DNA from: Peribacillus frigoritolerans | Lineage (GTDB): Bacteria; Bacillota; Bacilli; Bacillales; DSM-1321 | Assembly: GCF_040250305.1 (NCBI RefSeq) | Contig: NZ_CP158190.1 | Coordinates: 4,620,001-4,684,000 of the forward strand | DNA: 64,000 nt | Direction of reading: 5' to 3' | Shown here: in pieces, positions 7,341 through 64,000 of the stretch | How the letters are laid out: every line of letters starts with the position of its first letter | Position numbering within the stretch: the stretch's first letter is position 1 | Notes under the pieces: generated by a model | Databases searched by the model: none | What the model was told of the DNA's origin: nothing | Seen by the model: only the letters and a program-made list of their open reading frames with translations | Program-made: the position numbers and the translations under genes

Positions 7341-7456
7341 CTGAAGAATAAAAGTGAAACAAATTTGGATTTAAAATACTCGTTTGCTCCATTTTCAACA
7401 TACATATGTTAAAATAACCAATGACCCAATCATCCTACAAATTAGAGGTGTGTATA

Positions 7457-8134
7457 TTGACCATATCTAAAACAAATCGATTATCACTTGTAGAGCAAGT
7501 GGTTTCCCAAATCGAATCGTTAATCGAATCAGGTGAATGGAAAATTGGAAATCAAATTCCCCCTGAAATGGATTTGATCCAACAGTTCGATGTAAGCAGA
7601 AATACATTAAGGGAAGCTGTACGATCACTTGTTTATGCAGGACTTTTAGTAACGAAACAAGGAAAGGGGACATTCGTAAGGTCATCTAGTGCCTTGGGGG
7701 CAGCATTTGAAAGAAGGATCCAGCAGTCAAGTTTATTAGAAACGTTAGAGGTCCGTCATGCCCTTGAAAGAGAGGGTGCTCAGTTAGCGGCATTAAGACG
7801 TAATCAAGAAGATATAGAACGATTGCGGTTTCATATATCAGCATGCAGTAAAGCTGCCGAAGCAAAGGATATCAAGGCTTACGAAGAAGCCGATATACAG
7901 TTGCATAAATCGATTATGGGTTCATCACATAATGATTTATTGATTGATTTGTACGAACATATGGAACACTCCCTGTATGAATCGATCCATCAGATAGTGG
8001 AGATGAGTTCTGATGTGAACTTTCATTTGAACATTCATTGCAAACTTGTAGATGCCATCATCGAACAAGATGTGAACCGGGCAATCCAAACAGTGAATGA
8101 ATACATTGCACAATTCAAAAAATCTTTAGAGTAA
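7457..8134 (+). CDS. FadR-subfamily GntR transcriptional regulator
   Basis: A 225-residue regulator. The N-terminal winged helix (about residues 10-75) has the GntR signature QIPPEMDLIQQFDVSRNTLREAVRSL. The C-terminal FCD domain is all-helical, with conserved Arg/Asp/His positions (VRHALEREGAQLAA, DIQLHKSIMGSSHND) that in this family bind a metal and an organic-acid ligand. The start is TTG 7457, six nt after AGAGGTG; the upstream ATG at 7421 has no ribosome site. It lies 14 bp before a CynX-type transporter in one operon and probably controls it. Confidence 0.88.
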   Translation: MTISKTNRLSLVEQVVSQIESLIESGEWKIGNQIPPEMDLIQQFDVSRNTLREAVRSLVYAGLLVTKQGKGTFVRSSSALGAAFERRIQQSSLLETLEVRHALEREGAQLAALRRNQEDIERLRFHISACSKAAEAKDIKAYEEADIQLHKSIMGSSHNDLLIDLYEHMEHSLYESIHQIVEMSSDVNFHLNIHCKLVDAIIEQDVNRAIQTVNEYIAQFKKSLE

Positions 8135-8148
8135 GTAAGGAGGAGATT

Positions 8149-9375
8149 ATGGGCATTCATCAAGCGGCAAATCAACTAGAACAAACAAAAATGGATATTA
8201 AACCCAGAGTTGGACTACTCATCATCGGAATCATTCTTCTTGGGGCAAATCTGAGGGCTCCCTTAACATCGGTTGGCCCCCTTGTCACTTCGATCCGGGA
8301 TAACTTGGGAATATCAAATACATTATCAGGTTCATTAACGACACTGCCTTTGCTTTCCTTTGCTTTATTATCACCGTTTGCACCTAGGATAGCACGGCGT
8401 TTTGGAATGGAGCTTACGCTTTTCCTTTCCTTGATATTACTAACAATCGGAATTGGGATACGCTCAGTTGGCGGAGTGCCGACATTGTTCATAGGGACCA
8501 TTTTAATCGGGTTAGCCATTGCAATAGGCAATGTATTGTTACCAAGTCTGATTAAACATAACTTTGCCAGGAACATCGGTTTGATGACAGGAACCTATGC
8601 TGTTTCCATGAATTTATGTGGCGCAATAGGTTCCGGGATCAGCATTCCCCTTGCTTCTTCATCGGGGTTGGGATGGGCTGGTGCCCTTGGATGTTGGGGA
8701 ATTTTATCACTTATTACAGTTTTCTTATGGATGCCTCAAATAAGACGGCCATTCAACTCAGGTAAGGATGTACAAACGGCACAAAAGGATAAAAAGATTA
8801 ACTTATGGCGTTCTGGTTTAGCCTGGCAGATTACATTCTTCATGGGTTTGCAATCGTTCATTTTCTATACAGTAATTACCTGGATGCCGGAAATCCTGGA
8901 GCAAAAAGGCCTGAACGCTGATGAAGCTGGTTGGATGCTATCCATCATGCAGCTTGCAGTCATTCCAATAACATTCCTTGTGCCAATTTTAGCTGGTCGC
9001 TTACAAAGTCAGCGTTTGTTAGTGGTCCCACCTGTCGTCTTCCTTATTGCAGGGATATTCGGCATATTATATGGAAGCACTCTCTTCATACCAGTATGCA
9101 TGATATTGATCGGGATTGGAGTTGGAACCATATTCAGTTTATCGATGATGTTCTTTAGTCTTCGAACACAAAGCACCCATGAGGCGACGGAATTATCAGG
9201 AATGGCTCAATCATTCGGGTACCTCTTAGCTGCCATTGGACCAGTATTATTCGGCTTGCTTCATGACATTACACACAGCTGGACAGTTCCCTTATTGATG
9301 TTGGCCGTAATTTCGGCACTTATTTTCATTGTTGGAATGCGTGCAGGAAATAATGAATATGTAACTACTCGATAA
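8149..9375 (+). CDS. CynX/NimT-family MFS transporter
   Basis: A 408-residue protein with 12 predicted membrane segments. Helix 1 carries the family hallmark GANLRAPLTSVGPL, and FAPRIARRFG forms the loop 2-3 MFS motif. Relatives include E. coli CynX and YeaN/NimT and B. subtilis YycB. A TAAGGAGGAG ribosome site precedes the ATG. The gene follows the GntR regulator in the same operon, and a 12-bp stem hairpin ends it. The pairing suggests an inducible exporter or importer for a small organic anion; the substrate is unknown. Confidence 0.85.
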   Translation: MGIHQAANQLEQTKMDIKPRVGLLIIGIILLGANLRAPLTSVGPLVTSIRDNLGISNTLSGSLTTLPLLSFALLSPFAPRIARRFGMELTLFLSLILLTIGIGIRSVGGVPTLFIGTILIGLAIAIGNVLLPSLIKHNFARNIGLMTGTYAVSMNLCGAIGSGISIPLASSSGLGWAGALGCWGILSLITVFLWMPQIRRPFNSGKDVQTAQKDKKINLWRSGLAWQITFFMGLQSFIFYTVITWMPEILEQKGLNADEAGWMLSIMQLAVIPITFLVPILAGRLQSQRLLVVPPVVFLIAGIFGILYGSTLFIPVCMILIGIGVGTIFSLSMMFFSLRTQSTHEATELSGMAQSFGYLLAAIGPVLFGLLHDITHSWTVPLLMLAVISALIFIVGMRAGNNEYVTTR

Positions 9376-50684: not shown

Positions 50685-50784
50685 TTAAATACGGTAAATA
50701 TGCGTACATTGTCTGGATGACAAATACAAACAGCCTTATAAGACTGAATGACAAATACAAGCATAAATCCAGTTCCTCCATTCG

Positions 50785-50940
50785 TAGAGCTTTAGCACTG
50801 TGTGGCATAGGACAAAGCCAGCTACATTAAAAACCACCTTATGTCGATGGTTTCTGTTGACCCATTGGCGTCTTTCGACATTTTTGGGCAGTAGCGTATC
50901 TCCTACACAGGAGCCTCACCTAACGAGGATATTTAATTTA
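50785..50940 (-). promoter_or_regulatory. M-box (ykoK) magnesium riboswitch
   Basis: The reverse strand carries the conserved blocks in order: CGTTAGGTGAGGCTCCTGT, GATACGCTACTGCCC, AAAATGTCGAAAGACGCC, AATGGGTCAACAGAAA, TCGACATAAGGTG, AGCTGGCTTTGTCCTATGCC and ACAGTGCTAAAGC. It is a cis-acting Mg2+ sensor upstream of mgtE, with the terminator about 100 nt downstream. Confidence 0.96.
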
Positions 50941-53917: not shown

Positions 53918-54976
53918 TTAAATCAGTTGCCCTAAATGTTTCTTCGCCTCGTAATCAACAAGTTTTTCATCCTGCTTGATTCGTGCCAGATAATCCGGGT
54001 TGGCTAAAAGCGGACGTCCAATCGCCGCAACGTCAATGATGCCTTTTTCCAGTGCGGCTTCTGCTGTTTCAGGATCAAGCCCTCCCACACCGACTATAAT
54101 GCCATCCCAGTGGCTGCGTACCAATTCATGCATGGTCAATCCTCTTGCAATCGGTTTGGTAAATTCCATCGTGGATGGGTGAATCATTTTGACTCCTGTT
54201 TCATTGAACGCTTCAATAAATGTTTGGATCGCTTTTTCAGGGTCTTCCCACATGTAAGACGGCTGGTCAATTTTCAAAGCCGAGAAACGAATAAGGGTAC
54301 GTTCCACTCCAACCGCATCAATAACTGCTTTTAGCACTTCCTTCATAAAAGTCAGGCGCTGTTTTAAATCACCACCGTACCGATCGGTCCTTTTATTGGA
54401 GGTGTCAGAATTGAACTGGTCTATTAAGTAGCCGTGTGCACCATGAATTTCAACGCCGTCAAAGCCAGCATCCATTGCATTCTTTGCAGCTTGTTTATAT
54501 TGGTTCACAACTTCTGCAATATCCGTCTCTGTCATTTCTTCAGGAGTGTCAAAAGGTTTGCCGAATCGTGAAACCTTTCCTTCTGCAGCTATAGGTGACG
54601 GAGCCTGTGGAGGAAGTCCTCCTGCAATTTCATGGTGACTTGCACGGCCCACATGCCAGATTTGCGCAATAATCGTTCCGCCTTCAGCGTGTACTGCTTC
54701 CGTTACCTTTTTCCACCCGTTGATTTGCTCTTGAGTATATATACCGGGAACTCCAGGATTGCCCTTTGCTCTTGGTGAAATCACTACACCTTCAGTAATG
54801 ATAAGTCCGATTCCATCTTGAGCCCGTTTTCGGTAATATTCTACGGTCAGGTCATTCACAACACCAGTTTCGTTATCGGCAAACGCCCGTGTCATAGGAG
54901 CCATAGCCGTTCTTGTTTTTAAGTTCCATGCGCCTATTGTTACAGGTTCAAACATTTTGGTTTTTATTGTTTTCAT
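53918..54976 (-). CDS. NADH:flavin oxidoreductase, old-yellow-enzyme family
   Basis: A 352-residue TIM-barrel FMN enzyme. Markers: RTAMAPMTRAFAD (about residue 22), QIWHVGRASH (about 100), the substrate-binding HGAHGYLIDQF (about 178, His-Ala-His in place of the common His-Ala-Asn), RYGGDLKQRLTF (about 198) and VGVGGLDPETAEAALEKG near the end. It reduces alpha,beta-unsaturated carbonyl compounds using NAD(P)H. The ATG has a CAGGAGGGAC site. It lies after lmrB on the same strand but with its own spacing. Confidence 0.9.
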   Translation of the reverse strand: MKTIKTKMFEPVTIGAWNLKTRTAMAPMTRAFADNETGVVNDLTVEYYRKRAQDGIGLIITEGVVISPRAKGNPGVPGIYTQEQINGWKKVTEAVHAEGGTIIAQIWHVGRASHHEIAGGLPPQAPSPIAAEGKVSRFGKPFDTPEEMTETDIAEVVNQYKQAAKNAMDAGFDGVEIHGAHGYLIDQFNSDTSNKRTDRYGGDLKQRLTFMKEVLKAVIDAVGVERTLIRFSALKIDQPSYMWEDPEKAIQTFIEAFNETGVKMIHPSTMEFTKPIARGLTMHELVRSHWDGIIVGVGGLDPETAEAALEKGIIDVAAIGRPLLANPDYLARIKQDEKLVDYEAKKHLGQLI

Positions 54977-55116
54977 TTAAGTCCCTCCTGTTAACCGCTT
55001 TACCTGAGCTAAATTTAGTAACTATCATTGTGTAAGATTATCCGATAAGTGGTTAATTTTCAAATAATTCACTCTGATTTTAGATCTTTTGATAAAATAT
55101 GGTAATAAAGACCAAT

Positions 55117-55154
55117 GAAAAAGCCAGACAGAGATACTCTATTCCCTGCTGGCT
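55117..55154 (-). terminator. Terminator of lmrB
   Basis: On the reverse strand AGCCAG pairs with CTGGCT across a partly paired 21-nt loop, followed by TTTTTC. Confidence 0.6.
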
Positions 55155-55173
55155 AATTTATTTTAATATCTTA

Positions 55174-56601
55174 TTAGTCTCGTGCTGTTCTGATAAAAAA
55201 AGACACGATCAAACCAATGATTGCAAGGACAAGACCGAAAATAAAGGCATCTTGAACGCCTGCAGTCAATGAACCGCTAATGGCAGATGGATCGAACGGA
55301 TCTTCTGCATTTGCCATATAAATTTTTTGGGATGCTGACATGATTGTAATGGCAACGGTTGTACCGATGGCCCCTGATACTTGTTGCAATGTATTCATTA
55401 GAGCCGTTCCATCCGGATAAAGTTTTTTCGGCAGTTGATTCAGCCCATTTGTCTGGGCCGGCATCATGACCATCGAAACACCAATCATAAGGAGGGAATG
55501 CATGACGACTACCATAATGATCGTCGTTTCAGTCGTTACGTTCGTCAAGGTCCATAACATGACAATCATGATAATGAAGCCAGGGATCACTAACCCTCTT
55601 GGCCCGAACTTATCAAAAATGCGCCCTGTAACCGGAGACATGATACCATTAAGCACTCCACCCGGTAATAGTACCAGCCCAGCAGAAAACGCAGCTAATG
55701 CAAGCCCGGTTTGCAGGTATAGCGGTAAGAGAATCATGGATGACATGATGATCATGAAGGTGATGAAGACAGTTATTAACCCTAACGTGAACATCGGGTA
55801 TTTAAAAACGCGCAAATCTATCATCGGTTTATCCATGTTGAATTGCCTCACAGCAAACAGGAATAGCGCTATAAGTCCAACAATGATCGAAGATAGAACT
55901 ATCACATTGCTCCATCCTTGCTCTCCGACAATACTAAAGCCATAAACAATACCCCCAAAACCAATGGTCGATAAAATAATGGATGGTACGTCAATTTTAG
56001 GTTTGGTGATTATTGAAACGTTTTGCATATATTTGAGACCGAATAGTAAAGCGATCACAAAGAACGGCAAAGACACCCAGAAAATGTAATTCCACTTCAG
56101 GTTTTCAATAATCAAACCTGAAACTGTCGGCCCGATTGCTGGGGCAAACATGATCACCAACCCCATCAATCCCATCGTCGCTCCCCTTTTATGAATAGGG
56201 AAAATCAATAAAATGGTATTGAACATGAGAGGCAATAAAAGACCCGTTCCGATTGCCTGGATGACACGGGCTAGCATCAAGATGCCAAACCCAGGTGCAA
56301 TTGCTGCAATGAGCGTCCCAATGATGGAGAACACCATTGAGGCAATGAATAATTGACGAGTATTGAACCACTGAATCAAGAGTCCCGAAACGGGAACCAA
56401 TATCCCCAATGTTAATAGGTAACCCGTTGTCAGCCATTGCACGGTGGAAGGACTGACATTGAACTCTTGTATTAGATCGCCCAGCGCCATGTTTAATGCC
56501 GTCTCACTGAATAACCCAATGAACCCTGCAATTAAAAATGCAATTAAAATGGGAGTCGTTCTAATGACTGTTTTTTGTTGCTGTGTTGCATCTGTAGACA
56601 T
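55174..56601 (-). CDS. lmrB: Multidrug MFS exporter of the DHA2/EmrB type (LmrB-like)
   Basis: A 475-residue transporter with 14 predicted membrane helices. DHA2 markers are ALNMALGDLIQEF (helix 1), WLTTGYLLTLGILVPVSG (helix 2), LARVIQAIGTGLLLPL (helix 4) and GATMGLMGLVIMFAPAIGPTVSGLI (motif C). LmrB of B. subtilis gives resistance to lincomycin and puromycin. It lies 62 bp after a TetR regulator in the lmrA-lmrB order, so identity rests on both sequence type and neighbour. Confidence 0.88.
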   Translation of the reverse strand: MSTDATQQQKTVIRTTPILIAFLIAGFIGLFSETALNMALGDLIQEFNVSPSTVQWLTTGYLLTLGILVPVSGLLIQWFNTRQLFIASMVFSIIGTLIAAIAPGFGILMLARVIQAIGTGLLLPLMFNTILLIFPIHKRGATMGLMGLVIMFAPAIGPTVSGLIIENLKWNYIFWVSLPFFVIALLFGLKYMQNVSIITKPKIDVPSIILSTIGFGGIVYGFSIVGEQGWSNVIVLSSIIVGLIALFLFAVRQFNMDKPMIDLRVFKYPMFTLGLITVFITFMIIMSSMILLPLYLQTGLALAAFSAGLVLLPGGVLNGIMSPVTGRIFDKFGPRGLVIPGFIIMIVMLWTLTNVTTETTIIMVVVMHSLLMIGVSMVMMPAQTNGLNQLPKKLYPDGTALMNTLQQVSGAIGTTVAITIMSASQKIYMANAEDPFDPSAISGSLTAGVQDAFIFGLVLAIIGLIVSFFIRTARD

Positions 56602-56662
56602 AAAATATTTCCTCCAATTACTAACTGTTCGACCTAAGCTTAAGATAATTTTTCCGTATGAC

Positions 56663-57235
56663 TTATTTATTTATCAGCAATAATGGTATCTGTTCGGCAA
56701 TGGCATGGAGAGGTTCCCCGCTTTTCGCCGTTAAGGATAAAAGGATACCGCCTTCAATTAAAGCATTAATTACGATACTCAATTCTTTTGCCCGTTTCTC
56801 ACTGAATTCCGCCTCGAGTAATTTCTTCACATATATAGATTGCCAATCTTCTATCGCTTCTTGGCAGGCCGTTCTTATCTGCTCACTCGTCGTATATGTT
56901 TCTGCTGCAATCGTTCCGATTGGCAGTCCTAATAGATTTTCACTATCACCAAATACCTCGGATAATTGAAAAATATGAGCCTGAATGGCTTTGATGGGGT
57001 CATCGATTTCATCAAAGCCCCGTTGAATTTCATCTATCACGAATTCTTTTGTATGAATAATCGCCTCTATCGCCAATTCTTCTTTGCCTTTCGGAAAATA
57101 ATGATACAGAGAACCTTTTGGGATTCCGCTTTCCTCAATAATGTCCTTAAGCCCTACACCATAATATCCACGTATTCGAAAAAGTCGGGAAGCAGCTTCA
57201 ATAAGAATGTCTTTAGAGTTTCGTTTCTCTGCCAT
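56663..57235 (-). CDS. lmrA: TetR-family repressor, LmrA/QdoR type
   Basis: A 190-residue repressor. The N-terminal helix-turn-helix (about residues 8-55) has LFRIRGYYGVGLKDIIEESGIPKGSLYHYFPKGKEELA, the LmrA/QdoR form of TetR, and the C-terminal TetR_C domain follows. The ATG has a TAAGGAGTGAT site. It precedes lmrB in an operon whose promoter overlaps a partial LmrA box, indicating autoregulation. In B. subtilis LmrA releases DNA on binding flavonoids; whether this ligand is shared is not known. Confidence 0.9.
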   Translation of the reverse strand: MAEKRNSKDILIEAASRLFRIRGYYGVGLKDIIEESGIPKGSLYHYFPKGKEELAIEAIIHTKEFVIDEIQRGFDEIDDPIKAIQAHIFQLSEVFGDSENLLGLPIGTIAAETYTTSEQIRTACQEAIEDWQSIYVKKLLEAEFSEKRAKELSIVINALIEGGILLSLTAKSGEPLHAIAEQIPLLLINK

Positions 57236-57961: not shown

Positions 57962-57992
57962 CAAAAAATAAGCAAACCCAATCAGGGTCTGC
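57962..57992 (-). terminator. Terminator of the sigma-54 operon
   Basis: On the reverse strand GCAGACCC pairs with GGGTTTGC around TGATT, followed by TTATTTTTTG. It lies about 45 bp past the dehydrogenase stop. Confidence 0.75.
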
Positions 57993-58035
57993 CCTTGTAC
58001 TCCATTCGAATTTCTTTTCAAAAGATCGATTACTG

Positions 58036-59025
58036 TTAATAACCAAGCTTTTTTTCTACAACGTTCATTAGGGGTTTACCGTCAGAATAAAGCTTTAAAT
58101 TTTTCAGGAATAATTCCATTACCCGATCTAAGTGTTTGGAAGAGTTGTAAGCATTATGTGGGGAAACCATGACATTTTCCAGCTGCCAGAAAGGGTGGTC
58201 CTTAGGTAAAGGTTCTACTTCAAACACATCCAGAGCCGCACCTGCTATGTGTCCATTGCTCAAGGAATGAATTAAATCTTCATCAACAATCGTATTACCT
58301 CGGCCGACATTAATTACATAGCTGCCTTTTTTCATTTTATTTAAGCGTTCTTTATTAAAAAAGTATGATGTATCTTTTGTAAACGGAAGGGCCAAGACGA
58401 CAAAGTCGGACCTGGAAAGGACCTCATCCACTTGATCCATTCCCATTATCAAATCTGCAGGTTCATATTCTGTGTTCCTCTTGGAGGGATTCCGGCGGCA
58501 CCCAATAACGGTCATACCCAGTGCTTTACATCTCTTTGCTATCTCATAGCCAATATCACCATACCCAATTATCCCCACTGTCGCATTCTCGAGATCTTTC
58601 ACAGGAATTTCAACCCAAGTTTTGTTTATTTGATTTCTGATCATTGTCGGTACACCTCTTGCTAACGAAGACAGCATCGCAATTGTATGCTCCGCTATCG
58701 GGACAGATGTGCAGCCTTTGACATTGGTGATGATGACATCGCTTTTTTGTATATCTTCATTCAGCATGGCCTCCACTCCAGCAGTGTCTGAATGGACCCA
58801 TTTAATCTTTGGAGCTTTTTTTATAATGTTAAGATTATCATGAAGCCCCAGCGTATAAATGACATCAAACTTCGATAGATCAACTGTTGGCTGTGGTTCA
58901 GGTTCACCGAATTCCCATGGTTCGACAACAACTTCCGAACAAAACTCCTTAAACTGATTGATGTATTTTTCCGGTATATCGACCCTTATATAAAGTGAAG
59001 GTGCTGTTTTCTTAGAACCGGACAT
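58036..59025 (-). CDS. D-2-hydroxyacid dehydrogenase, NAD-binding
   Basis: A 329-residue enzyme of the 2-hydroxyacid dehydrogenase family. The NAD Rossmann motif is GIIGYGDIGYEIAKR (about residue 150). The catalytic Arg is in NVGRGNTIVDE (about 240), Glu in VFEVEPLP (about 268) and His in VSPHNAYNS (about 290). It interconverts a 2-oxoacid and a D-2-hydroxyacid. The ATG follows GAGGAGG. It is the last gene of the four-gene operon driven by the sigma-54 promoter at 62586, 90 bp after the aldolase. Substrate is not evident; a glyoxylate- or phosphoglycerate-type role is possible. Confidence 0.88.
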   Translation of the reverse strand: MSGSKKTAPSLYIRVDIPEKYINQFKEFCSEVVVEPWEFGEPEPQPTVDLSKFDVIYTLGLHDNLNIIKKAPKIKWVHSDTAGVEAMLNEDIQKSDVIITNVKGCTSVPIAEHTIAMLSSLARGVPTMIRNQINKTWVEIPVKDLENATVGIIGYGDIGYEIAKRCKALGMTVIGCRRNPSKRNTEYEPADLIMGMDQVDEVLSRSDFVVLALPFTKDTSYFFNKERLNKMKKGSYVINVGRGNTIVDEDLIHSLSNGHIAGAALDVFEVEPLPKDHPFWQLENVMVSPHNAYNSSKHLDRVMELFLKNLKLYSDGKPLMNVVEKKLGY

Positions 59026-59115
59026 TATAAAACCTCCTCAAGAACCTACGATACCTTTTTCCCTCTTTTATGGGAAAGCAATCCGTTGCGGATTAGACCA
59101 TGCCTTGCTTTATGG

Positions 59116-59877
59116 TCACTTCAAGAAATCTGGTTGCTCTTTTCTGATTCTGTCCCAAAGAGGCTGAAAACTCAGCCATCCCTCATATTCCGTTCCCGTT
59201 TGTTCTGCCGTTAACTTTGCATACTCTTCGTCTATAAAAATAGGCTTACCTACAGACTCAGCCATTATCTGTGCTTGACATGAACGTTCCATCGTTATGA
59301 ACCACCACGCAGCCGAATCTACAGACTGGCCTACAGTTAACAATCCATGGTTGCGGAGGATGACAGCTTTGTATTGACCTAAAGCCTTAGCAATGCGTTT
59401 CCCTTCTTCGGATGCATAAACCACACCAGTAAAATCATCAAATAATGCATGATCTCTGTAAAATTGGCAGGCATCTTGCGTAATCGGATCTAACAGTCTC
59501 CCTAAGGAAGACCATGTCTTTCCATAGACTGAATGAGCATGTGCCGCTGCAATGGCGTCCGGTCGCGCTTTATGAATTTCAGAATGAATGGCAAAGGCAG
59601 CACCATTCACAGAATGTTCACCCTCTACAATATCACCTTTATGATTGACCAATATAAGATCCGAAACGGAAATTTGACTAAAATGCATCCCAAACGGATT
59701 AACCCAGAAATGGTCTGTATATTTAGGATCACGGACCGTAATATGGCCAGCTATCCCTTCATCGAAACCAAACTTTGAAAAAAGACGGAATGAAGCTGCC
59801 AACCGTTCCTTCCTGTGAATGCGCTCTTCTTCCAATGTATTGAATGTTGCGGGTTGCAGGGAAATTGTCTTTGTCAT
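59116..59877 (-). CDS. Class II aldolase/adducin-family protein
   Basis: A 253-residue zinc enzyme of the fuculose-phosphate aldolase/adducin fold. Zn-binding His residues are in AAAHAHSVYGKTW (about residue 115) and ILRNHGLLTVGQS (about 175); FDEGIAGHITVRDP (about 35) is the usual family start. I use ATG 59877 after GGAGGAAAG; six codons of longer frame are excluded. Members cleave or form C-C bonds in hydroxy-carbonyl substrates, or decarboxylate them. Between the symporter and dehydrogenase genes, it most likely acts on an intermediate of the same pathway. Confidence 0.88.
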   Translation of the reverse strand: MTKTISLQPATFNTLEEERIHRKERLAASFRLFSKFGFDEGIAGHITVRDPKYTDHFWVNPFGMHFSQISVSDLILVNHKGDIVEGEHSVNGAAFAIHSEIHKARPDAIAAAHAHSVYGKTWSSLGRLLDPITQDACQFYRDHALFDDFTGVVYASEEGKRIAKALGQYKAVILRNHGLLTVGQSVDSAAWWFITMERSCQAQIMAESVGKPIFIDEEYAKLTAEQTGTEYEGWLSFQPLWDRIRKEQPDFLK

Positions 59878-59919
59878 TTTTACTTTCCTCCTCAATTTTT
59901 CCGTTTTTTTGCCGAACCA

Positions 59920-61362
59920 TCAATTAGCCATTGTGTCCATGTCAGCTTTACCCTTTATATCTTGCTTTACTTCACTTTTGTTTCTGTGATCATTATTCGG
60001 ACTTAGGAGAGTGATCGTAGTGATGACGACAAAACTAGTAGCGAGCCCGTACAGGATTGGTTGAGTGGAGGAAGGTCCATTTATCACCAATCCGACAATA
60101 ATAACGATCATGCTGGCCAGAATTGAGTAAAATGCTGCTGTAGCCGTGACCCTTTTCCAAAAGAAACCAAGGATGATCGGAAAGAACACAGCACCGGATA
60201 AAATTGCGTAAGCTACATCCAATGCAACTAAAATATCTTGAATCCATATCGAAACGATTATGGTCAATACACCAATCGTTAAAGTTGTAATTCGGGATGT
60301 TTTTAAAAATTGTCGTTCACTCATTTTTGGACCGATATATTTTTTAATGATGTCATTAACAACTAAAGTGGACGAAGCAAGCAAAGTTCCTGAAGCTGTG
60401 GACATTAGGGCCGATACCACACTCGCAATGACAACCCCCAATAGGCCAGCAGGTAAAGTTTCCATCGCTATACTGGTAAATGCATTTTGGGGATCGCCTA
60501 AATCAGGAAGGATAATAAAAGCGCACATTCCAATGATACTGATTGCAATCGCATAAAAAACACTATATAGTCCCGCTCCAATCGTTCCGCCACGAGAAAC
60601 AGCTTTGGTTCGTGCGGTAAAAAGTCGCTGCCAAATATCTTGGCCAACAACTACCCCTAGAGTAAATAGTAGGAAATATTGAAAAATCGTCTCTCCGCCA
60701 ATGTTGCCTAACTCGAAATGTGAGGCCGGGAGATTTTCTTTAAGCGAGCCCCACCCTCCTGCCTTAGAGATGCTCATCGGAAGCATGATAAAGAAAATGC
60801 CGATCGTCATGATGACGAATTGCACGACATCAGTCATGGTGACTGACCACATACCTCCTAATATTGTATAAAATAAAACGATCCCACCCCCGACAATCAT
60901 GGAAACCGTTAAATTCCAGCCGGCCAAAACATGTAAAATTGTCCCCATCCCAATCACTTGCGTTACAGTCAGCATGAATGTATAGATAACAGAGACAAGG
61001 GCACTGATCAATCTTGTCTGAGAGTTGTAACGCTTCTCAAGCATTTCACTGATCGTCAATACTTTTAAATTAAATATCTTATTTGTTAAAAACAACCCGA
61101 TAGCAATAATGCCGAGCCCGATCATCACCACTAGCCAAATACCGGATATCCCAAACTGATAACCTAACTTTGCTGTTCCTAGAGTAGAAGCACCCCCTAA
61201 TATCACAGCAGCTAAACAGGATAAATACATAAAATGACCAAGATTACGTCCTGCCACAATGAAATCATCTGCTGTTTTTGCCCGTTTGGATCCGATTACT
61301 CCCACAATGATTAAAACAGAAAAATATAGAATCATGATCGATATATCCAAAATATGCATGTA
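59920..61362 (-). CDS. Sodium:solute symporter (SSS family)
   Basis: A 480-residue transporter with about 13 membrane helices. Helix 1 begins MHILDISIMILYFSVLIIVGVIGS, followed by DDFIVAGRNLG and GGASTLGTAKLGYQFG, then the SSS signature around helix 5-6 (GGMWSVTMTDVVQF, about residue 180) and SALMSTASGTLLASSTLV (about 330). It uses the sodium gradient to import organic solutes. The start is ATG 61362 after AAAAGGAGATG, which removes 21 codons from the open frame. It follows the ureohydrolase gene by 97 bp and should import the operon's substrate. Confidence 0.92.
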   Translation of the reverse strand, partial: YMHILDISIMILYFSVLIIVGVIGSKRAKTADDFIVAGRNLGHFMYLSCLAAVILGGASTLGTAKLGYQFGISGIWLVVMIGLGIIAIGLFLTNKIFNLKVLTISEMLEKRYNSQTRLISALVSVIYTFMLTVTQVIGMGTILHVLAGWNLTVSMIVGGGIVLFYTILGGMWSVTMTDVVQFVIMTIGIFFIMLPMSISKAGGWGSLKENLPASHFELGNIGGETIFQYFLLFTLGVVVGQDIWQRLFTARTKAVSRGGTIGAGLYSVFYAIAISIIGMCAFIILPDLGDPQNAFTSIAMETLPAGLLGVVIASVVSALMSTASGTLLASSTLVVNDIIKKYIGPKMSERQFLKTSRITTLTIGVLTIIVSIWIQDILVALDVAYAILSGAVFFPIILGFFWKRVTATAAFYSILASMIVIIVGLVINGPSSTQPILYGLATSFVVITTITLLSPNNDHRNKSEVKQDIKGKADMDTMAN

Positions 61363-61459
61363 CACATCTCCTTTTGGGCTTGTATTGTTCTTATCGCTTT
61401 GTAAAGAGGGAAGAAAGGATTTCACCGATTCCTTCCTTCTTTACAGTTAAATGAAGAAA

Positions 61460-62458
61460 CTATTTGTTAAATTGGGTTTCCAAATCTCCGACTCTCTCTT
61501 TTTTCTCCAGTTTCCCTTTTTTTGCGAGAGCAATGAGTGTGATGAATTCATAGACAATATTAGCGGCTGCGGCAGCCGTGATTTGTCCGTGATCGTATGA
61601 TGGTAAAACCTCAACAAGATCGAATCCAACAAAATCTATATTCGTCAAGCCTCTCACTAAGGCCAAAGCATCATCAATGCTGGCACCGGAAACTTCAGGG
61701 GTCCCCGTTCCCGGAGCATAGACCGGATCTAAAAAATCAATGTCAAAAGATAAAAAAACCGGACCATTCGCAACACGCTCATGAATGACCCCCAGCATCT
61801 TTTCGACCCCGATACGTTTATAATCGTTTGTCGTATAAACGCCCAAACCTAAATCCCGGGCATCCTGAAGATCTTCCGGTCCGTACAGACCGCCCCTCAT
61901 ACCAATTTGAAGAGATCGAGATACATCGATGAGACCCTCTTCTATTGCGCGGCGAAAAACGGTTCCGTGATTATACTTTTGGTCAAAATAACTATCCCAA
62001 GTATCAGAGTGAGCATCGAATTGAAGCAGGGCAACAGGTCCATGTTTTTTAACGATCGCACGTAACTCCCCTAGTGTAATGGAATGATCGCCTCCCAATG
62101 AAATGGGAATGATCCCTTTTTCAATGACGGGGGTAAGCTCTTCTTCGATCTTTTTATATGTTTCAGAAATATACCCCGGAATGATTGGAATATCCCCATA
62201 ATCTATTCCTGATATATAGTCAAAAATATTAATATCTTGTTCTGGATTATAAGGACGTAAAAGGATTGAAAAATCGCGAATGGCCTCTGGTCCGAATCTC
62301 GCACCCGTTCTAAATGATTGCCCGGAATCAAAAGGAATCCCCGTAATGACAAAATCCATATGTTCATCTACCCGTTCAACAAATGGGAGCCGCATAAACG
62401 TACGCACTCCACAAAAACGGGGTGATTTGAATGAGTCTTTCGGTTGATACTTCATCAT
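61460..62458 (-). CDS. Ureohydrolase of the agmatinase/guanidinobutyrase type
   Basis: A 332-residue manganese enzyme of the arginase fold. Metal ligands are in SLGGDHSITLG (His, about residue 125), QFDAHSDTWDSY (Asp/His/Asp, about 150) and LSFDIDFLDPVYAPG (Asp, about 235). The NHGTVFRRA stretch after the second motif is common to agmatinase and guanidinobutyrase enzymes, not arginases. It should release urea from a guanidino compound, leaving an amine. First gene behind the sigma-54 promoter; the ATG has an AGGAGGATG site. Agmatine is only one possible substrate given the unusual partner genes. Confidence 0.88.
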   Translation of the reverse strand: MMKYQPKDSFKSPRFCGVRTFMRLPFVERVDEHMDFVITGIPFDSGQSFRTGARFGPEAIRDFSILLRPYNPEQDINIFDYISGIDYGDIPIIPGYISETYKKIEEELTPVIEKGIIPISLGGDHSITLGELRAIVKKHGPVALLQFDAHSDTWDSYFDQKYNHGTVFRRAIEEGLIDVSRSLQIGMRGGLYGPEDLQDARDLGLGVYTTNDYKRIGVEKMLGVIHERVANGPVFLSFDIDFLDPVYAPGTGTPEVSGASIDDALALVRGLTNIDFVGFDLVEVLPSYDHGQITAAAAANIVYEFITLIALAKKGKLEKKERVGDLETQFNK

Positions 62459-62585
62459 GTAACATCCTCCTAAAATCTAATTCTGCCGTAATTTTTTTCA
62501 CTCCACTGCAATTGCAGCTGTTCCTACAAACTTCCATCTTTTCTAATAGAATGGCTATGGAAATTCTCTTCTTATCTATTACATA

Positions 62586-62601
62586 AGCAAGATTCAGGCC
62601 A
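62586..62601 (-). promoter_or_regulatory. Sigma-54 (-24/-12) promoter
   Basis: On the reverse strand TGGCCTGAATCTTGCT has GG and GC elements exactly 12 bp apart, matching TGGC-N8-TTGCT. It lies about 130 bp before the ureohydrolase start and is divergent from a sigma-54 activator gene, so its assignment is strong. Confidence 0.85.
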
Positions 62602-62651
62602 ACTATTTTGCTGTGGTATATGAGGCTTTTCGTTATTTTGTTTCATTCAAT

Positions 62652-62669
62652 TGATTAAAAACTTAATCA
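62652..62669. promoter_or_regulatory. Inverted repeat, candidate activator-binding site
   Basis: TGATTAA-AAAC-TTAATCA is a perfect 7-bp inverted repeat about 50-70 bp upstream of the -24 element, between the two divergent genes. It is where an upstream activating sequence for the neighbouring sigma-54 activator would be expected. Confidence 0.5.
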
Positions 62670-62762
62670 TTTTCTTGTTTTTTAATTTAATTTTTGATTA
62701 TTTCGACTTTTTGATTTATATTTTAATTAAACATGATCCCAAAACCCAAAGGAGCGGAACTT

Positions 62763-64000
62763 ATGTACGATGATATGCTGGAGGAAGAACTAAATAAGAT
62801 TATTGAAACATCGAATAATAACATTCTCATTACCGATCAAGATGGGATCATTTTATATTCCAACCCAAAGCTTTGGGAGATTTATGGTATGAAAAGTGAC
62901 TCTTATATCGGTACCTCCGTCTATCAATTAGAAAGTGAAGGCCTTCTCACACCTTCCATCAATGCGATTGTTTTAAAAGAAAAGAAAGCTAAGCGCATAA
63001 TGCAAGAAACTAAAACGGGTCATGTTGTCATGTCGACTGGCTATCCCATTTTTAATAAGGAAGGACTTCTCGTTAGGGTAATCAGCTATGGTCAGGATCA
63101 AACCGAGATTTTGCAATTGCAGGATCAATTTGAGCAATTACAACGAAAAATAAAAGGCTATCAAACGGAAGTCGAGGATTTAAGAGAAAAGGAACTGGAT
63201 TACCATTATTTGATTGCCAGAAGTAATGAAACGAAGCATATTTTAAAAACGATCCATAATGTTTCAAAAACCGATGCCACGATTCTCTTATTAGGACCTT
63301 CCGGGGTAGGAAAAAGCACTTTTGCCCGTGCTGTTCATGACCAAAGCAACCGAAAGAAAGAACCTTTTATCGAAGTGAATTGCAGCACGATACCTGAAAG
63401 TTTGTTTGAATCAGAAATATTCGGCTATGAGCCGGGATCATTTACAGGGGCAAATAAACAAGGGAGGCAAGGCCTGATTGAGCAGGCTGACAGCGGGACT
63501 CTTTTCTTAGATGAAATCGGTGAACTCCCACTTGCCATGCAAGCTAAATTACTGAAAGTATTACAGGAAAAAAAGATAAAGCGCATCGGCGGAAAAAAAG
63601 AAAACCATATTAACTTCCGCCTGGTTGCAGCAACTAATCAAGATTTGAAGGAGATGGTAAGTCAAGGTAAGTTCAGATTGGACTTATTTTATCGTTTGAA
63701 TGTGATTCCCATCCAAATACCGGCATTACATGAACGTAAAGAAGATATCCCTCTCTTAATTCAGCATTACTTACAGAAAACCAATGATAAATACCAGAAA
63801 TTCAAAAAAATCCATCCATCGACTTATGAAGTTTTGACTCATTATCATTGGCCCGGAAATATACGGGAATTAGAAAACTTAATTGAACGGTTAATCCTGA
63901 CCATCGAAGAGCCTATTATATTTCCCGAACACCTTCCCCAATCCATCACAGGGCAAATAGAACAGCCTGAAGATTCCACGTTCCTGGCAATCGAACAGGA
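62763..64000 (+). CDS. Sigma-54-dependent transcriptional activator (PAS + AAA+), cut by window end
   Basis: About 412 residues are visible before the window ends. A PAS domain (about residues 10-110, NNNILITDQDGIILYSNPK) and a coiled linker precede the AAA+ domain. That domain has Walker A GPSGVGKST (about 180), the sigma-54 contact loop GYEPGSFTGANKQG (about 222), Walker B GTLFLDEIGELP (about 245), the sensor R-finger FRLDLFYRLNVIPI (about 305) and WPGNIRELENL (about 365). The loop reads GSFTGA rather than the usual GAFTGA. The FIS-type DNA-binding domain lies beyond the window. The ATG follows AAAGGAGCGG. It diverges from the operon it should activate. Confidence 0.93.
   Translation, partial: MYDDMLEEELNKIIETSNNNILITDQDGIILYSNPKLWEIYGMKSDSYIGTSVYQLESEGLLTPSINAIVLKEKKAKRIMQETKTGHVVMSTGYPIFNKEGLLVRVISYGQDQTEILQLQDQFEQLQRKIKGYQTEVEDLREKELDYHYLIARSNETKHILKTIHNVSKTDATILLLGPSGVGKSTFARAVHDQSNRKKEPFIEVNCSTIPESLFESEIFGYEPGSFTGANKQGRQGLIEQADSGTLFLDEIGELPLAMQAKLLKVLQEKKIKRIGGKKENHINFRLVAATNQDLKEMVSQGKFRLDLFYRLNVIPIQIPALHERKEDIPLLIQHYLQKTNDKYQKFKKIHPSTYEVLTHYHWPGNIRELENLIERLILTIEEPIIFPEHLPQSITGQIEQPEDSTFLAIEQ

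Follow-up and report, generated by a model that had tools for sequence, protein, structure and literature searches.

A ureohydrolase operon of Peribacillus frigoritolerans (NCBI RefSeq assembly GCF_040250305.1, contig NZ_CP158190.1) was analyzed in a stretch of 64,000 bases (the window, bases 4620001-4684000 of the 5.6-Mb single-contig genome). As judged from its sequence, it is almost certainly controlled by sigma-54. It encodes a ureohydrolase, a sodium:solute symporter (SSS), a 'class II aldolase' family protein and a D-2-hydroxyacid dehydrogenase, and the gene set probably serves the uptake and breakdown of guanidino acids. The main new point is the re-assignment of the 'aldolase' to the NovR/TqaM-type oxidative decarboxylases (hereafter NovR-like). 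The best explanation overall is a substrate-induced sigma-54 guanidino-acid operon with a Peribacillus-type front end, to which we give an even chance in its entirety; the sigma-54 guanidino-acid operon as such is a solid prediction. The features are as follows (positions of the window):

62733 to 64000, plus strand: predicted sigma-54 enhancer-binding activator of 477 amino acids with PAS, Sigma54_activat and HTH_50/HTH_8 domains, ending at window-equivalent 64166 (166 bases beyond the window)
62586 to 62602, minus strand: -24/-12 sigma-54 promoter TTGGCCTGAATCTTGCT, the sole perfect site of the window, conserved upstream of orthologues
61460 to 62458, minus strand: ureohydrolase of the guanidinobutyrase/guanidinopropionase group, 332 amino acids, with metal ligands, Arg68, Tyr157 and Trp154
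59920 to 61359, minus strand: SSS importer, 479 amino acids from an ATG behind AAAAGGAG (the open reading frame opens at 61425)
59116 to 59877, minus strand: 'class II aldolase'/adducin-fold protein, re-assigned as NovR/TqaM-like, 253 amino acids from an ATG behind a Shine-Dalgarno sequence (the open reading frame opens at 59895)
58036 to 59025, minus strand: NAD(P)-dependent D-2-hydroxyacid dehydrogenase, 329 amino acids, with 2-Hacid_dh and NAD-binding domains
57970 to 57994, minus strand: intrinsic terminator at the operon end, with 10 pairs, a 5-nt loop and a T tail

Proposed re-assignment of the 'aldolase'

Pfam and NCBIfam scans confirmed the families of the operon proteins, although the term 'class II aldolase' denotes a fold. 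The protein so named matches Aldolase_II (Pfam) and the PRK06208 subfamily (NCBIfam), and among solved proteins it scored 262.6 bits with NovR (48.8% identity), 256.7 bits with 4xxf (52.5%), 188.5 bits with TqaM (46%) and about 52 bits with Escherichia coli FucA. Glu73 and Tyr113 of FucA are catalytic residues; in the Peribacillus protein they are replaced by Ala and Gln, so that it lacks the catalytic residues of a FucA-like aldolase. At the position of Glu73, NovR also has Ala and TqaM has Gly. The three metal-binding His (His92, His94 and His155 of FucA) are retained, and they are invariant in all 25 aligned members of the NovR-like family. The closest fold to an AlphaFold2 model of the protein (predicted local distance difference test score 86) was NovR (template modeling score 0.93, root-mean-square deviation 1.5 A), followed by 4xxf, TqaM and pyruvic oxime dioxygenase, and FucA came later (template modeling score about 0.66). 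One of the TqaM entries among the fold matches holds D-3-phenyllactate, a 2-hydroxyacid. The protein thus combines the fold with the three His ligands of the NovR/CloR/TqaM decarboxylases, and, as predicted from sequence and model, its chemistry is likely to be of the NovR/TqaM type and not aldol chemistry.

According to the accessible parts of the sources, CloR and NovR use three-His iron and O2 for two oxidative decarboxylations, from 2-oxo acid to 2-hydroxy acid to acid (PMC13111500), and TqaM is an oxidative decarboxylase (PMC12192607). NovR/CloR (novobiocin, clorobiocin) and TqaM (aminoisobutyrate) share with the Peribacillus protein the fold, nearly half of the residues (49% and 46% identity for NovR and TqaM), the three-His site and the loss of the aldolase Glu. 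They make natural products, in so far as the same partly accessible sources describe them, whereas the Peribacillus gene stands in a catabolic-looking sigma-54 operon.

Identity of the ureohydrolase

Among solved proteins, the ureohydrolase comes closest to GbuA, GpuA and proclavaminate amidinohydrolase (43, 43 and 41% identical, respectively). It scored 269 bits with GbuA and 259 bits with GpuA, compared with 197 bits or lower for solved agmatinases and 160 bits for 'agmatinase 2' (7esr; we take 7esr/7oi1 to be guanidine hydrolase). His125, Asp148, His150, Asp152, Asp239 and Asp241 align with metal-site residues, and Asp241 is presumably the sixth residue of the site. The other five are named in the accessible part of PMC9772407. 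With the residues of a binuclear metal site and greater similarity to GbuA and GpuA than to solved agmatinases, the protein falls into the guanidino-acid group. Arg68 corresponds to Arg72 of GbuA, an Arg that reaches and caps the active site of the neighboring subunit and binds the carboxylate (PMC9772407, accessible part), and Tyr157 corresponds to Tyr157 of GpuA, which, with Met161 in GbuA, is a substrate-recognition residue (PMC10833137, accessible part); the residue is of the GpuA type. Because of the GbuA/GpuA grouping, the retained carboxylate-capping Arg and the GpuA-type Tyr157, a guanidino acid is the probable substrate, for which we have good, though sequence-derived, confidence. The ureohydrolase for guanidino compounds in an earlier note on this DNA is thereby kept, with its hydrolysis and import, and modified in that the nearest relatives are guanidinobutyrase and guanidinopropionase, not solved agmatinases. 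The nearest named relatives, 99% identical, come from Bacillus and Peribacillus strains including P. frigoritolerans.

The systems of Pseudomonas aeruginosa for 3-guanidinopropionate (GpuA) and 4-guanidinobutyrate (GbuA) are alike in the 43% identical ureohydrolase, its metal site, the capping Arg and the Tyr157 of GpuA, and in the gpu locus an SSS transporter presumably adjoins as well. They have a LysR-type regulator. The Peribacillus operon differs in its sigma-54 PAS activator, in the additional NovR-like enzyme and 2-hydroxyacid dehydrogenase, and in Trp154 in place of Asn. We know of no 2-hydroxyacid dehydrogenase or NovR-like oxygenase in the arginine transaminase/oxidase route. That route, which proceeds via 2-ketoarginine and 4-guanidinobutyrate, likewise ends in a guanidino acid that is cut by a ureohydrolase (PMC2242806, accessible part).

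The same genome encodes two more ureohydrolases, 49 and 47% identical (7415-8365 of locus L157, at genome position 793423, and 8037-9065 of L158, at 3402096), each of which adjoins a protein of one cluster of APC-type amino acid permeases (by Pfam on the first).

Sigma-54 control and unity of the operon

The motif YTGGCMYN5TTGCW occurs without mismatch only at 62586-62602 of the window, and with at most one mismatch at 10 sites (4.2 expected). We scored the promoter (maximum 14, GG and GC obligatory, a site being called at a score of at least 13 in the 330 bp that precede the ureohydrolase gene) for a context set comprising the best 80 of 291 ureohydrolase loci: 11 from Peribacillus, 27 others of 58-87% identity and 42 below 58%. 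A site was called in 9 of the 11 Peribacillus loci, the other two carrying it further upstream (11/11 in all), and in 19 of the 27 others, against a background of 7 in 386 segments of 330 bp from both strands of the window. It was absent from the remaining eight (L025, L026, L029, L033, L035 and L038-L040, the last three from Staphylococcus), where the symporter stands ahead of the ureohydrolase in L025, L026 and L035 and L033 begins at a contig end; three loci of 55-56% identity (L045, L049 and L055) also lack it. The -24/-12 promoter thus shows both GG-N10-GC and conservation, as in a sigma-54-dependent operon, and the divergent gene encodes PAS, sigma-54 AAA+ and helix-turn-helix domains; both elements had been proposed in the earlier note. 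The genome contains rpoN, with two matches in open frames (5191650 and 597820).

Control of COG0010 (arginase/agmatinase) genes by sigma-54 in Bacillota has already been predicted, and the operon agrees with that prediction, which in the accessible part of PMC12316311 names COG0010 only and does not resolve the clade, partners or substrate of the present ureohydrolase. The terms 'agmatinase', 'ureohydrolase' and 'guanidin' were not found in two main texts on sigma-54, as far as accessible (PMC4428206 and PMC6615313).

Open reading frames and family scans bear out an arrangement of four same-strand genes, with the divergent activator at one end and a terminator at the other. Gaps of 100, 42 and 90 bp separate these genes, and a scan of the gaps found neither terminators nor sigma-70-like promoters, so that a split of the operon by an internal element was rejected and the genes can be read as one unit. 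In the gap ahead of the dehydrogenase, folding equals chance (z 0.02); a 51-base piece of it forms a small, mildly stable hairpin (z -1.96) with no U run directly behind. The terminator, previously placed at 57962-57992, was recovered at 57970-57994, but the scan of the whole window gave no excess (3 found compared with 3.7 in shuffled sequences) and the hairpin folded with its flanks is unexceptional (z -1.31). All five genes are under purifying selection, with ratios of nonsynonymous to synonymous substitution rates of 0.02-0.12 in comparison with up to eight Peribacillus relatives.

Distribution and neighbors

In 36 Peribacillus genomes, 21 have a ureohydrolase of at least 90% identity at the locus (broken in one, G008). 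An intact NovR-like gene adjoins it in 19 of the 21 and a remnant in two; the dehydrogenase is present in 16 (broken in one). The breaks in G008 affect the activator, ureohydrolase, symporter and dehydrogenase pieces together and may be sequencing errors. G001 has two operon copies (L097 and L102), with the ureohydrolase broken in one and a dehydrogenase remnant in the other. Where the dehydrogenase is missing, a remnant was found in one second operon copy (L102) and none in L015, L016, L017 and L096; this gene may have been gained late or lost repeatedly.

Outside Peribacillus, the NovR-like gene adjoins the ureohydrolase in two genomes of one genus from another family, in the order activator, perfect -24/-12 site, class III aminotransferase, SSS, ureohydrolase, NovR-like gene. 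The class III aminotransferase of locus L143 has five distant matches elsewhere in the P. frigoritolerans genome (33-41%, one with stops). In the 27 non-Peribacillus loci of the context set (neighbors counted within 6 kb at E <= 1e-20 on the same strand, the activator on either strand), the ureohydrolase is accompanied by an activator in 19, an NCS1 permease in 13, an SSS symporter in 11 (compared with 11 of 11 Peribacillus loci), a carbon-nitrogen hydrolase in 10, an aldehyde dehydrogenase in 9, a cyclase/formamidase-like protein in 9 and a class III aminotransferase in 3. Aldehyde dehydrogenase, aminotransferase and amidase neighbors would fit the feeding or draining of a guanidino acid such as 4-guanidinobutyrate; that ordinary operons carry an aldehyde dehydrogenase or an aminotransferase instead, as the earlier note had expected, holds for some of these relatives. 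The NovR-like gene and the dehydrogenase are accessory, being absent from all 27 other loci and absent or lost in some Peribacillus. In P. muralis neither of the two is present as an intact copy.

Pairs of ureohydrolases that differ strongly in sequence, encoded within about 5 kb, were seen in Thermomicrobium and HR27/HR28 records and in Paenibacillus and Neobacillus genomes (L046, L047, L048, L050, L054, L056, L061, L063, L070, L073, L077, L078, L079 and L086); such pairs may form enzymes of two subunits, as in metformin hydrolase.

Relatives of the NovR-like gene were found in 34 of 397 order-level genomes (E <= 1e-80). The 34 loci studied comprise 31 outside the Peribacillus operon and three from other Peribacillus species; six genomes with the Peribacillus operon and a third copy in G077 were set aside. 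A phylum-level search (398 genomes, E <= 1e-70) returned the gene in its own genome only; as other phyla were not searched, the order is the sole basis for judging how widely it occurs. The gene directly adjoining the NovR-like relative encodes a D-2-hydroxyacid dehydrogenase from a distant clade in seven loci, a PanE-type reductase in four (two of them divergent), a flavin mononucleotide (FMN)-dependent 2-hydroxyacid dehydrogenase in two and a TauD-type dioxygenase in five. 2-Hydroxy/2-oxoacid oxidoreductases of three families thus adjoin the gene in 13 of the 34 loci, and they make up 13 of 68 flanking genes compared with 2 of 347 other genes when kinship is ignored. The dehydrogenase of the operon itself has the 2-Hacid_dh and NAD-binding domains of a D-2-hydroxyacid dehydrogenase, and it scored below threshold with all 25 of the NCBIfam models listed (28 matched).

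Proposed pathway and alternatives

In the proposed mechanism, the PAS/AAA+ activator would drive the substrate-induced operon from the -24/-12 promoter, the symporter would import a guanidino acid and the ureohydrolase would release urea and an omega-amino acid (beta-alanine or gamma-aminobutyric acid), two steps with good support. The NovR-like enzyme, with three-His non-haem iron, may decarboxylate a 2-hydroxy (or 2-oxo) acid with O2, for which support is moderate, and the dehydrogenase would interconvert the 2-oxo and 2-hydroxy forms needed by the oxygenase. Together the last two could convert a guanidino 2-hydroxy or 2-oxo acid to the guanidino acid one carbon shorter, which would pass to the ureohydrolase; that they supply its guanidino acid is our best guess and not a result, and a single pathway for all four enzymes falls a little short of an even chance. 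Import of a guanidino compound and degradation of its skeleton, proposed previously, stands for import and hydrolysis, and not for a step of aldol cleavage.

More tentatively, and rather doubtfully, the route may be an O2-dependent carbon shortening, in which the dehydrogenase sets the 2-oxo/2-hydroxy level and the NovR/TqaM-like iron enzyme removes C1, and the PRK06208 'aldolases' of Bacillales may form a catabolic decarboxylase class. Argininic acid or 2-ketoarginine would then yield 4-guanidinobutyrate, and 2-hydroxy-4-guanidinobutyrate, or 2-ketoarginine clipped twice as by CloR, would yield 3-guanidinopropionate, a product that agrees with the GpuA-type Tyr157. More widely, the Bacillales PRK06208 'aldolases' would pair with interchangeable dehydrogenases or hydroxylases as 2-hydroxyacid oxidative decarboxylases.

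Several observations weigh against the proposed pathway or parts of it. The NovR-like gene is a remnant in two Peribacillus genomes (G013 and G014), it adjoins a close ureohydrolase in only 8 of the 48 order-level genomes that have one (six Peribacillus and the two of the other family), and both genes also occur far apart within one genome, e.g., G223 and G312. Its relatives are spread over many units (TRAP, ABC, acyl-CoA and other gene sets), and 16 of the 34 loci have none of the four oxidoreductase or dioxygenase types adjoining. The PanE, FMN and TauD queries were picked after the neighbors had been viewed, the query fixed in advance giving only the seven dehydrogenase cases, and several of the loci are relatives of one another (a single genome holds both L161 and L162); therefore, the P value of the enrichment is not to be taken literally. 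Few genomes of the order carry the dehydrogenase clade (9 of 397 at E <= 1e-80, including six Peribacillus), and the gene is missing from the locus in 5 of the 21 Peribacillus genomes. In three genomes outside Peribacillus, dehydrogenases of 60-61% identity have no NovR-like gene or ureohydrolase within a 16-kb stretch, and two of them come after a major facilitator superfamily (MFS) transporter and a class I/II aminotransferase. In the ureohydrolase, Trp154 (codon at 61997-61999) stands where GbuA and GpuA both have Asn and is kept in every aligned orthologue of at least 55% identity; specificity may therefore differ, and the residue might mark another chain length or head group. Use of urea nitrogen is not evident, since a search of the genome for Urease_alpha yielded no more than a borderline match of 36 positions (other urea-degrading enzymes were not sought).

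The strongest rival, which we hold to be the less probable reading, is that the activator, ureohydrolase and symporter form an ordinary guanidinobutyrate or guanidinopropionate operon, with the NovR-like enzyme and the dehydrogenase as passengers acting on another hydroxy acid. The accessory distribution agrees with it, as do the decay of the last two genes in some Peribacillus, the 27 other ureohydrolase loci with neither gene, the many different transporters that accompany NovR-like relatives and the three genomes in which the dehydrogenase clade occurs without either partner. However, the NovR-like gene follows the symporter after only 42 bp, and in a second family it is joined to ureohydrolase and SSS under the same kind of promoter, where it is 82% identical to the Peribacillus gene and the ureohydrolase only 61-63%. 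Gene order in relatives, the check that the earlier note had called for, accordingly gave a divided answer: the 'aldolase' and the dehydrogenase mostly lie in other units, but 19 of 36 Peribacillus genomes and the two genomes of the other family have the 'aldolase' next to the ureohydrolase.

An operon for agmatine or guanidine, with the ureohydrolase as an agmatinase or guanidine hydrolase, is unlikely. The protein does pass the cut-off of the NCBIfam agmatinase model TIGR01230 (220.9 vs 174.3 bits), but the agmatinase name is a weak guide because one human guanidino-acid hydrolase carried the agmatinase annotation for a long time (PMC9772407, accessible part). Solved agmatinases, including those of the SpeB type, are not its closest relatives, as the bit scores show, the carboxylate-binding Arg is kept, and no guanidine riboswitch was found at the gathering threshold in the 11 sources searched; both substrates were disfavored on these grounds.

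Cleavage by a genuine class II aldolase of a hydroxylated skeleton remaining after urea removal, with the dehydrogenase handling the hydroxy-carbonyl product, is very unlikely. The Aldolase_II and PRK06208 matches speak for it, as does the 52.5% identical 4xxf, called a fuculose aldolase by its depositors, which also weighs against the re-assignment. But Glu73 and Tyr113 are lost, NovR and TqaM resemble the protein far more, both by sequence and by fold, than do FucA and the other phosphate aldolases named among the matches listed (4xxf excepted), and aldol cleavage, including the aldolase acting on a hydroxy-carbonyl intermediate that had been suggested before, was rejected as first choice.

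Should the guanidino-acid pathway with a NovR-like oxygenase hold, a set of genes of Bacillus relatives that now bear the name 'class II aldolase/adducin family protein' would encode O2-using decarboxylases, chemistry so far tied to antibiotic and peptide building blocks (in the accessible parts of the sources) would extend to these bacteria, and a soil bacterium would have a way to use hydroxylated or keto guanidino acids. In such a pathway, otherwise of a known kind, the new element would be an iron enzyme that removes a carbon from a hydroxy acid with oxygen. The sigma-54 promoter and activator give a direct route to the substrate via induction. Among the literature matches listed, neither the Peribacillus gene set nor a NovR-like enzyme in a guanidino operon was found, a weak negative, as titles and starts of abstracts were covered and subscription papers mostly were not.

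Other features of the window

Past the terminator, at 53918-57235 (minus strand), lie genes for TetR-like regulator, MFS drug-transporter-like and old-yellow-enzyme-like proteins (named by eye). The clusters C5-C7, matched by order and lengths, follow the operon in 10 of 40 clustered sources, all Peribacillus. An M-box magnesium riboswitch (RF00380, 139 bits) is located at 50769-50934 (minus strand).

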